A stretch of 10,104 nucleotides of DNA from Zoogloeaceae bacterium (lineage in GTDB: Bacteria; Pseudomonadota; Gammaproteobacteria; Burkholderiales; Rhodocyclaceae): assembly GCA_031290535.1 (NCBI GenBank), contig JAITNI010000005.1, forward strand, positions 1-10,104, read 5' to 3'. The position numbers and the translations under genes were made by a program. Under the pieces are notes generated by a model, which was not told where the DNA came from, did no database searches, and worked only from the letters and a program-made list of their open reading frames with translations. Positions within the stretch are counted from its first letter, which is position 1. Each line of letters opens with the position of its first letter. Positions 2,237 through 6,040 of this stretch are shown piece after piece.

Positions 2237-2455
2237 ATGGAAGTGCTGTATCTCCTGATTCCCTTCTCGGTGCTCCTCGTCTTCGCCATTGCCGTGATTT
2301 TCTGGCGTTCGGTGTGCGGCGGCCAGTTCGACGATCTGGAAGGCCCCGGTTTCCGGCTCCTGATGGACGATGACTTGCCCAAAGAAAAAACGCTTCCGCC
2401 TGCGGCTGCGCCAGACACTTTGCCCCCAGACCCGGAAAAACTACCGCCCGTTTGA
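2237..2455 (+). CDS. ccoS: cbb3 oxidase maturation protein CcoS/FixS
   Basis: Small single-span membrane protein (72 residues) needed to obtain active cbb3 oxidase with its heme and copper cofactors. One hydrophobic helix (about 4-23) is followed by the family signature GQFDDLEGP at 29-37, then a short acidic stretch. I chose the ATG at 2237 because the helix then begins at once, as in other CcoS proteins. An upstream ATG at 2201 would overlap the end of ccoI and add unrelated residues. A weak AAAGG lies at 2222-2226, ten bases before the start. The C-terminal tail (about 49-72) is rich in proline and charged residues and makes the protein somewhat longer than many CcoS. The gene sits directly behind ccoI, as is usual. 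Its TGA stop is embedded in an FNR box. Confidence 0.93.
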   Translation: MEVLYLLIPFSVLLVFAIAVIFWRSVCGGQFDDLEGPGFRLLMDDDLPKEKTLPPAAAPDTLPPDPEKLPPV

Positions 2456-2465
2456 TTTGCATCAA
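2452..2465 (+). promoter_or_regulatory. FNR/ANR box 1
   Basis: TTGAT-TTGC-ATCAA is a perfect match to the FNR/ANR/CRP-fold consensus TTGAT-N4-ATCAA. It overlaps the last codons and stop of ccoS. It lies more than 180 bases upstream of the ccoN promoter, with a terminator in between, so it probably serves a separate transcript starting near 2499. Confidence 0.85.
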
Positions 2466-2486
2466 AGCCAGAAGCCCGCTTCAGAA

Positions 2487-2492
2487 CATAAT
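2487..2492 (+). promoter_or_regulatory. -10 element of FNR promoter 1
   Basis: CATAAT matches five of six bases of TATAAT. There are 21 bases between it and the right half of FNR box 1, so the box would be centred near -41 relative to a start near 2499. This is the class II geometry for FNR activation. No good -35 hexamer is needed or seen. Confidence 0.6.
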
Positions 2493-2498
2493 CCCCCT

Positions 2499-2587
2499 CA
2501 CTTTACTGCGAGGTAAATGTGACCTCTCACGAGGTCAGACTGTTTCTCTGTTGGGGTTGGGGTGCGTTGCGACGCACCCTTTTTTTT
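2499..2587 (+). ncRNA. Candidate FNR-activated small RNA (about 88 nt)
   Basis: The predicted start near 2499 (from FNR box 1 and CATAAT) and the intrinsic terminator ending at 2587 define a compact transcript. It contains a perfect 7-bp hairpin, TGACCTC/GAGGTCA (2520-2526 with 2531-2537) with a TCAC loop, then an unpaired pyrimidine- and G-rich stretch with two TTGGGG repeats (2551-2562), then the terminator hairpin. An alternative pairing of GAGGT (2510-2514) with ACCTC (2522-2526) is also possible. No convincing ORF or ribosome binding site is present. FNR-controlled sRNAs are known in other bacteria (FnrS, AniS, PhrS), but I see no basis for assigning this one to those families. The alternative is that the terminator only ends ccoIS transcription and box 1 is incidental. 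Confidence 0.55.
2560..2587 (+). terminator. Rho-independent terminator between ccoS and ccoN
   Basis: A perfect 8-bp stem, GGGTGCGT (2560-2567) with ACGCACCC (2572-2579), has a TGCG tetraloop and is followed by eight T (2580-2587). It would end ccoIS read-through and the candidate small RNA, and it insulates ccoNOQP from upstream transcription. Confidence 0.93.
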
Positions 2588-2759: not shown

Positions 2760-4223
2760 ATGTCGGAAACGCAAACCACATATAACTACAAGGTCGTGCG
2801 GCAGTTTGCCGTGATGACCGTCATCTGGGGCATTGTTGGCATGCTGGTCGGTGTCATCATTGCCGCCCAGCTGGTCTGGCCGGAGCTTGTCAGCGCCAAT
2901 GTGCCTGAATTCCTTGCTCCTTTTCTATCTTATGGTCGTCTGCGCCCACTGCATACCAATGCGGTGATCTTCGCGTTCGGCGGTTGCGCGCTGTTTGCAA
3001 CCTCTTACTATTGTGTGCAACGTACCTGTCACACGCGCCTGTTCAGCGACGGGCTGGCGGCCTTTACCTTCTGGTTCTGGCAAATCGTCATCCTGCTGGC
3101 GGCGCTCTCCCTGCCGATGGGCATTACCACCGGCAAGGAATACGCCGAGCTGGAATGGCCAATCGACATCCTGATTACCGTGGTCTGGGTGGTCTATGCC
3201 GTGGTGTTCTTCGGCACGATCGCCAAGCGCAAGGTTCAGCATATTTATGTCGCCAACTGGTTCTTTGGCGCCATGATTATCGCTGTCGCCCTGCTGCACC
3301 TGGTCAATAGCGCGGAAATCCCCGTGCTGGCCGCGCCGTGGTGGTCGCCGAGATCGTACTCCCTCTACGCGGGCGTACAGGACGCCATGATCCAGTGGTG
3401 GTATGGTCACAATGCCGTGGGCTTCTTCCTGACGGCGGGCTTTCTGGGCATGATGTATTACTTTGTGCCGAAACAGGCGGGGCGCCCGATCTACTCCTAC
3501 CGGCTGTCCGTAGTGCACTTCTGGGCGCTGATCTTCACCTACATGTGGGCTGGCCCGCACCATCTGCACTACACCGCCCTGCCAGACTGGACGCAATCCA
3601 TCGGCATGCTGTTCTCCCTGATTCTGCTGGCGCCTTCCTGGGGCGGCATGATTAACGGCATCATGACCCTGTCTGGCGCCTGGCACAAGCTGCGTGATGA
3701 CCCCATCCTGAAGTTCCTGGTGACGTCGCTCTCCTTCTACGGCATGTCGACCTTTGAAGGCCCGATGATGTCCATCAAATCGGTGAATGCGCTCTCCCAC
3801 TACACCGACTGGACGATTGGTCACGTGCACTCTGGCGCGTTGGGCTGGGTGGCGATGGTGTCCATCGGTTCGCTCTACTACCTGCTGCCGCGTCTCTTTG
3901 GCCGCAAGGAAATGTACAGCGTCAAGCTCATCACGGCGCACTTCTGGATTGCCACTATCGGCGTGGTGCTTTACATCGCCGCCCTGTGGATTGCCGGGGT
4001 GATGCAAGGACTGATGTGGCGCTCGATCAATCCTGACGGCACTCTGGCGTACAGCTTTGTGGAATCGGTGAAGTATTCCTATCCCTTCTGGCAAATCCGT
4101 GTCGTAGGCGGTCTCCTGTTCCTCGTGGGGATGCTCATCATGGCCTACAACATGTTCAAAACCATCGGGGCGGGCGAGTCTGAAGACGCGCCGGTTCTGG
4201 CGCCTGCCGCGCATCACGCCTAA
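2760..4223 (+). CDS. ccoN: cbb3-type cytochrome c oxidase subunit I, CcoN
   Basis: Catalytic subunit that reduces O2 to water and pumps protons in the inner membrane; it carries low-spin heme b, high-spin heme b3 and CuB. The 487-residue, very hydrophobic protein keeps the expected ligands. H65 (LHTN) and H357 suit low-spin heme b, H355 (GHVHSG) suits heme b3, and H217 (WYGH) with H267 and H268 (GPHHLH) suit CuB. Y261 in the FTYMW segment corresponds to the Tyr that is cross-linked to a CuB histidine in C-family oxidases. Length is normal for the family (about 475-490). The start at 2760 is supported by GAGAGGTG and by the usual length of the N-terminal tail. It is the first gene of ccoNOQP, driven by FNR box 2, and ends 12 bases before ccoO. 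Nothing suggests loss of function. Confidence 0.98.
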
Positions 4224-5998: not shown

Positions 5999-6012
5999 GG
6001 CGTACTCATACG

Positions 6013-6040
6013 ACGGGGTGGGCAACCACCCCGTTTTTTT
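6013..6040 (+). terminator. Rho-independent terminator of ccoNOQP
   Basis: A perfect 9-bp stem, ACGGGGTGG (6013-6021) with CCACCCCGT (6026-6034), is closed by a GCAA tetraloop (GNRA type). The T run is 6034-6040. It ends the structural-gene operon and separates it from ccoG. Confidence 0.95.

Follow-up and report, generated by a model that had tools for sequence, protein, structure and literature searches.

Organization of the locus

The window, that is the whole stretch of 10,104 bases that was analyzed, comes from a draft genome of 1.71 Mb that is 62.6% complete. On its plus strand lie ccoI (13-2214), encoding a copper P-type ATPase typical of these loci, ccoS (2237-2455, TIGR00847) and, further downstream on the same strand, ccoN (2760-4223, TIGR00780). 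A candidate small RNA gene is located between the latter two, also on the plus strand. Its promoter would contain an FNR box, TTGATTTGCATCAA, at positions 2452-2465 (hereafter box 1), which overlaps the stop codon of ccoS, and a -10 element, CATAAT, at positions 2487-2492, located 35 nt from the start of the box. The RNA is predicted to begin 7 nt past the -10 element and to end at a T run (2499-2587, 89 nt). The distance from the center of box 1 (2458.5) to the predicted start is about 40.5 nt, corresponding to class II spacing. A second box, TTGATCTACATCAA, at positions 2645-2658 of the plus strand (box 2), is taken as ccoN's own. The original prediction, which was made from the sequence of the window, had named a perfect FNR box, a -10 element at class II spacing, a transcript of about 88 nt and a second FNR box before ccoN, and all four agree with our results, in which both boxes showed 0 mismatches to the consensus TTGATN4ATCAA.

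Scanning for this consensus identified the two boxes as the only perfect ones in the 10,104 bases, against about 0.01 perfect matches expected per such window from the base frequencies. With up to 2 mismatches allowed, 5 boxes were found as compared to a mean of 2.73 in shuffled sequences, and 26 of 200 shuffles contained 5 or more, a control that spans boxes of up to 2 mismatches and is not informative on perfect boxes. A generic sigma-70 scan of the whole window predicted zero promoters, and the promoter call therefore rests on the box, the -10 element and the conservation of both. Two open reading frames span the interval, one starting with TTG (2452-2721) and one with GTG (2519-2662). They are not taken as coding, since the 5' part of the RNA varies in length among relatives, and the possibility of a coding RNA was set aside.

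A second strong intrinsic terminator with a 10-pair stem was observed between ccoP and ccoG (window positions 6012-6040), suggesting that ccoG may be transcribed separately from ccoNOQP.

Structure of the predicted RNA

The predicted RNA consists of two 5' hairpins (2502-2517 and 2520-2537), a core, UCUCUGUUGGGGUUGGGG, at positions 2545-2562, and an intrinsic terminator at positions 2559-2587, all on the plus strand. The core, which is invariant or nearly so and whose complement occurs at the ribosome binding sites of other genes, is the proposed seed. The terminator has a 9-pair stem (2559-2580) and a run of eight T ending at position 2587, which confirms the GC-rich terminator described previously. 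The window RNA (2499-2587) folded better than 200 of 200 shuffled sequences, with a z-score of -3.57. In a set of 56 sequences, 99.0% of the cells in the terminator stem were paired, and three of the seven pairs were compensatory.

The 5' hairpins were analyzed in 14 sequences from the genus, in which three of the five pairs of hairpin 1 and four of the seven pairs of hairpin 2 were changed on both sides. Paired cells made up 86.8%, as compared to at most 54.3% in slid versions; the covariation score was matched by 8 of 500 shuffles and the number of compensatory pairs by 15 of 500. The hairpin at positions 2520-2537, for which a search for compensatory changes in relatives had been suggested, exists and covaries within the genus, whereas across the family the 5' part is variable in both length and sequence, with predicted RNA lengths ranging from 40 to 158 nt (median 91). 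RNAalifold returned the same three hairpins, plus a 4-pair helix within the core that carries no information, as its pairs never vary. In the minimum-energy fold of the window RNA, part of the core is paired with the 5' end of the RNA, and we therefore only infer that the seed is exposed.

Conservation and distribution

A DNA similarity search matched 26 of 60 relatives. The most conserved portion of the loci found in this way was TCTCTGTTGGGGTTGGGG together with the terminator, and an FNR-like box (up to 2 mismatches) was located upstream in every locus listed from the search. A 17-mer from the core was found in at least 119 stretches from GTDB species genomes, the names listed being mostly Rhodocyclales or unclassified Betaproteobacteria, and the terminator T run was present in 107 of these. 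The other 12 stretches were rejected as chance or repeat matches (Lysinibacillus, Nocardioides, Anabaena and others) or as leaders of TusE genes (L044 and L147). Also rejected were five matches to the core in viral contigs, none of which had a T run, and a search of the window stretch against plasmids gave no match. Among the matches listed, the named carriers included Azoarcus, Thauera, Aromatoleum, Dechloromonas, Accumulibacter and Zoogloea.

The 107 loci with a T run and 27 loci found by similarity were combined into a set of 134 loci, including 7 duplicates. Since every one of the 134 loci was chosen by its T run, and 107 of them also by the 17-mer, the constancy of the core and the T run is partly built in; no such selection was applied to the box, the -10 element or the stem. 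A perfect TTGAY-N4-RTCAA box was present at most 170 nt upstream in 130 of the 134 loci (7 of the 130 being duplicates). Of the four loci with no perfect box, two are cut by the contig end (L105 and L127) and two are true misses (L085 and L114). A -10 element (NANNNT) was observed 35 or 36 nt from the start of the box in 128 of the 130 boxed loci, with L034 and L086 as exceptions, giving 128 of 134 loci in which both promoter elements are present. The core was kept in all 27 loci found by similarity, with a single change, in L019.

A covariance model of the core and the terminator (R1) was searched against 150 genomes of the window's family. Strong matches, with E-values below 1e-9, were obtained in 117 of them, and 126 genomes matched at an E-value of 1e-3 or better. 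Even among the lowest-scoring of the 117, the genomes G157, G061 and G139 retain the box, a core-like sequence and the terminator. The ccoN gene was identified in 138 of the 150 genomes: 114 contained both the RNA and ccoN, 24 only ccoN, 3 only the RNA and 9 neither. The three genomes with only the RNA (G099, G146 and G189) are all drafts. In an order-wide search of 300 genomes, 9 of which were family members, strong matches outside the family were limited to G336 and G355, and both copies sit between ccoS and ccoN; stricter filters were applied in this search, and weak kin in the order may therefore have been missed. Of the weaker order-wide matches, 19 (L177-L195) were inspected and rejected, as no cco gene adjoined them and most looked like plain terminators by eye.

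Two genomes of the genus, G004 (L002 and L027) and G006 (L010 and L028), carry two RNA copies each, with every copy placed before ccoN on its own contig, which reflects either duplication or mixed bins.

Independence from ccoS and ccoN

Among the 134 loci, ccoS had no match in 17 (4 of them duplicates) despite more than 600 nt of upstream sequence, and ccoN had no match in 9 despite more than 1000 nt (1-7 kb) of downstream sequence. In four loci, ccoN was located more than 700 nt from the RNA. Other genes were identified by eye in some of these places: an rlmN-like gene lies within 0.8 kb downstream in L136, L138 and L146, preceded by an ndk-like gene in L138, and genes for an Rrf2-type regulator and an Fnr-like protein lie downstream in L126 and L143. 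The unit is thus kept with no adjoining ccoS or ccoN, and the RNA gene therefore stands on its own. The box, the -10 element, the core and the terminator are conserved jointly and outlive the adjacency of ccoS and ccoN, in support of the independent small RNA gene put forward in the original prediction.

It could be argued that the terminator, which is placed directly behind ccoS, merely ends the ccoIS operon, and that box 1, as one of two boxes ahead of ccoN, serves ccoNOQP as an additional activator site, with no separate RNA. The terminator may well end ccoIS transcription as well. However, a terminator with no RNA of its own leaves unexplained the near-invariant core between the -10 element and the stem, the fixed distance of the -10 element from box 1, the survival of the unit with no ccoS or ccoN nearby and the complementary sites described below, and we consider it very improbable. 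It is scarcely credible that the RNA is a regulated leader, such that transcripts from box 1 extend into ccoN except when halted at the terminator. The position of ccoN downstream on the same strand, in the window and in most loci, would agree with a leader, but ccoN has its own box, the unit persists in loci with a distant ccoN or with none found behind it, and the T run and stem are constant, with no alternative pairing seen that would open the stem.

We also inspected about 1.2 kb ahead of ccoN in the 24 genomes that contain ccoN but no strong match to the RNA. One of these, G094, has a diverged copy of the RNA, and the core strings were absent from the inspected stretches (about 1.2 kb each) of the other 23. 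Perfect boxes before ccoN numbered one in 15 of the 23 genomes, in keeping with the assignment of box 2 to ccoN, none in 6 and two in 2 (L397 and L410), and ccoS was not found in the stretch before ccoN in 7 of the 23.

Nine loci contain ccoIS and the RNA but no ccoN within the downstream stretch covered (L102, L123, L126, L136, L138, L143, L146, L063 and L025); for L025, in genome G020, ccoN is located about 20 kb further along the same contig. In a separate observation, the CcoN matches of G064, G124 and G169, which are all three genomes of genus g46, contain one in-frame TAA each and otherwise show full-length similarity.

The regulator

The genome of the window encodes an Fnr protein (L428) that matches NF008365 with 250.5 bits, as compared to a cutoff of 228, and that has an N-terminal cysteine cluster. 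A second protein of the Crp type is also encoded in this genome. The RNA is probably activated by FNR. Another activator of the Crp-Fnr group, such as the NO-sensing Dnr/Nnr, would make a real RNA report nitric oxide rather than oxygen. The second Crp-type protein is consistent with such a regulator, as are the TTGAC/GTCAA half-sites of many relatives (among the 130 boxes, C at position 5 in 87 and G at position 10 in 83). Yet the box in the window is a perfect FNR consensus, a clear Fnr is encoded and the ccoN box is of the same kind, which makes a nitric oxide regulator quite improbable, although to our knowledge FNR and Dnr/Nnr regulators are inseparable from sequence alone.

Sites complementary to the core

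The complement of the core, CCCCAACCCCAACAGAGAGA, resembles a leader that is rich in C and passes into a Shine-Dalgarno sequence. We searched the 150 family genomes for this complement with up to 3 mismatches and obtained 212 matches, 209 of which were located in the 117 genomes that contain the RNA and 3 in the 33 genomes that do not. Subtracting one self match per genome leaves about 92 non-self sites in the RNA-bearing genomes, whereas a reversed-pattern control gave 27 matches in all 150 genomes. The excess in RNA-bearing genomes was significant against a chance spread over the genomes (p 2e-7); a stricter comparison of the real and the reversed pattern (92:23 versus 3:4) gave p 0.04, a value to be read with the caveat that related genomes are not independent.

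For a set of 60 non-self sites, with at least 8 further sites lying outside the set, an ATG opening a reading frame of at least 80 amino acids on the same strand was located 2-20 nt past the site in 34 cases, as compared to 3 of 60 on the opposite strand (p 2e-10) and 3 of 27 reversed-pattern control sites (p 4e-5). The remaining 26 sites had no such start codon. A pattern of a 10-mer followed by ATG, through which TusE first surfaced, was found 27 times in 61 genomes versus 5 times for the control, although five of these 27 matches fell on the RNA locus. The corresponding 9-mer pattern in the genus gave 22 matches versus 13 for the control, which is barely above noise, and a scan of 17 stretches from one genus genome provided no convincing top target.

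Genes behind the sites

An ATG 2-40 nt past the site, opening a frame of at least 60 amino acids, was present for 44 of the 60 sites, and 40 of the proteins were compared to NCBIfam and 10 of these also to Pfam. Several of the genes with the site 2-20 nt before the ATG encode proteins for the defence against oxidative stress: Fe-superoxide dismutase (SodB, L250), Cu/Zn-superoxide dismutase (SodC, L254), peroxiredoxin C (L248, L249), thiol peroxidase (Tpx, L263) and a glutathione-peroxidase-like protein (L226, below cutoff). The same group includes aconitase AcnB (L257), the Rieske protein (PetA, L260), cytochrome bd subunit I (L232, below cutoff), 4-hydroxybenzoate 3-monooxygenase (PobA, L255), catechol 2,3-dioxygenase (L277), BoxC (L230), a FA_desaturase_2 protein (L240, with L241 alike by eye), a glutathione-transferase-like protein (L246), a phasin (L237) and TusE/DsrC (L245, L251, L252, L256, L259 and L272 by profile, L253 by likeness only), in addition to others not named here. 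With the site 22-38 nt before the ATG, we identified isocitrate lyase (L269), pyruvate kinase (L261), a WrbA-like protein (L238), a FAD-dependent oxidoreductase (L279) and acetaldehyde dehydrogenase (L275).

TusE-type proteins were found at an E-value of 1e-25 in 20 of 71 family genomes. The leaders of 13 of the 14 closest orthologues were analyzed, as L378 was unalignable at the start, and distant paralogues were left out. In the RNA-bearing genomes, 11 of 11 leaders paired with the core at -27.3 kcal/mol or lower (median -33.3), a level that at most 3.5% of 343 background starts get to. Seven of the 11 lay outside the set of 60 sites, and in leaders such as ccccuaacccug (L366) the pairing was held through G-U. 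For the two genomes with no RNA, the site was lost in G060 (-20.5 kcal/mol) and kept in G107 (-31.4 kcal/mol). Just upstream of the core complement before the TusE/DsrC gene, L044 and L147 contain a palindrome that by eye we take to be of the IscR type, and which might link the sulfur relay to iron-sulfur control.

The sole target inspected in the window's own genome was sodB, whose leader (...cacaacgacaacggagaaaacaaaATG) can form 11 pairs, one of them G-U, with the RNA over the Shine-Dalgarno region. The pairing energy of -26.1 kcal/mol is reached by 7.6% of background starts. Thus, the RNA gene is very likely to be real in the organism of the window, whereas the indication of targets from its own genome is weak, and the targets there are inferred from relatives.

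Comparison with known small RNAs

No Rfam family matched the window or 14 related loci at gathering thresholds. Neither FnrS nor RF02278, the Betaproteobacteria toxic small RNA, was among the matches to the window stretch at E-values up to 10. AniS (RF02274) aligned end to end with 26.8 bits, as compared to a cutoff of 50, and SorY (RF02651) reached 27.8 bits in the window; of 10 further loci tested, 9 likewise gave a sub-threshold SorY match where the RNA lies (range 21.9-35.5, cutoff 111). By model score, the RNA is not a member of the FnrS, AniS or SorY families.

FnrS of Enterobacteriaceae has a class II FNR promoter centered at -41.5 (PMC3032703). Its repressed targets, over 30 mRNAs in number, function in aerobic respiration, central metabolism and oxidative stress (PMC8139620) and include that of SodB (PMC8595263). 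The window RNA resembles FnrS in its class II FNR promoter and in its predicted aerobic and oxidative-stress targets, but differs in seed, lineage and its location in a cbb3 oxidase locus. AniS of meningococci, called FnrS in gonococci, is produced by these Betaproteobacteria when oxygen is limiting; the gonococcal RNA combines a class II FNR promoter with a 5' stem-loop, an open stretch and a terminator, and is embedded in coding sequence of the opposite strand (PMC3032703). The targets of AniS were still termed elusive in 2017 (PMC5362039). The window RNA would be of a similar build, but its model score is below the cutoff and its genomic place differs. With SorY of Rhodobacter sphaeroides, the window RNA has CUGUUGG-N2-UUGGG by the terminator in common. 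SorY differs in that we take it to be an RNA of the singlet-oxygen response, as in its Rfam family title, and in its alphaproteobacterial host. The recurring sub-threshold match may mean that the two RNAs have converged on a useful seed, or that they are distantly related.

S17 of Bordetella pertussis (bdhR1, RF02278) contains a short region said to be fully conserved across Betaproteobacteria, including Aromatoleum; its annealing is predicted to disrupt ribosome binding, the gene adjoins coq7 and a short form arises by processing (PMC11722255). A conserved short region and predicted blocking of ribosome binding sites are features shared with the window RNA, whereas the locus differs (coq7 versus cco). 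SicX of Pseudomonas aeruginosa is induced at low oxygen via the FNR homologue Anr and is described as activating ubiUVT translation (PMC10247376). In contrast, the window RNA is predicted to repress.

Proposed function

We consider it quite probable that the locus encodes an independent, FNR-activated small RNA that acts in trans by masking the ribosome binding sites of aerobic and oxidative-stress mRNAs. At low oxygen, FNR would activate transcription of the RNA from a class II promoter belonging to the RNA gene alone, and transcription would end at the intrinsic terminator. The core would then pair with leaders rich in C and with the Shine-Dalgarno motifs AGAGAG and GGAGA, and this pairing is predicted to block ribosome binding on mRNAs of aerobic metabolism and oxidative-stress defence, such that these genes would be turned down when oxygen is lacking. 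Repression is the presumed direction of control, and Hfq may assist, as the T run of eight in the predicted RNA would fit Hfq binding.

The RNA is very likely real and family-wide; its seed can be read, and its regulon is predicted to resemble that of FnrS. It is undescribed as far as our literature search reached: no earlier report was found in the main texts searched, which included a minority of the subscription journals. A broader proposal, which we regard as rather unlikely, is that the RNA constitutes a family-wide post-transcriptional off-arm of FNR in Rhodocyclaceae, with one frozen 18-nt seed and a target set rewired per genus by point changes in ribosome binding sites, and that an ancient superfamily of proteobacterial redox RNAs, characterized by CUGUUGG-N2-UUGGG, unites it distantly with SorY and perhaps AniS.

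Azoarcus, Thauera, Aromatoleum, Dechloromonas, Accumulibacter and Zoogloea are known as denitrifiers, from the treatment of wastewater and as degraders of aromatic compounds, and they often shift between conditions with and without air. With its conserved, readable seed, the RNA yields candidate genes for the shutdown under anoxia that can be tested directly. A. aromaticum is reported to have no ArcBA, and small RNAs are mentioned there only as a possibility (PMC9765128).

Some of the site-bearing genes do not fit a pure shutdown of aerobic functions, namely those for NifB (L224), a NifX-like protein (L258), IspH (L228) and the YfhL ferredoxin (L227). The complements of the core are located 3 nt ahead of nifB and of the nifX-like gene, and these sites hint at a possible additional role in nitrogen fixation.
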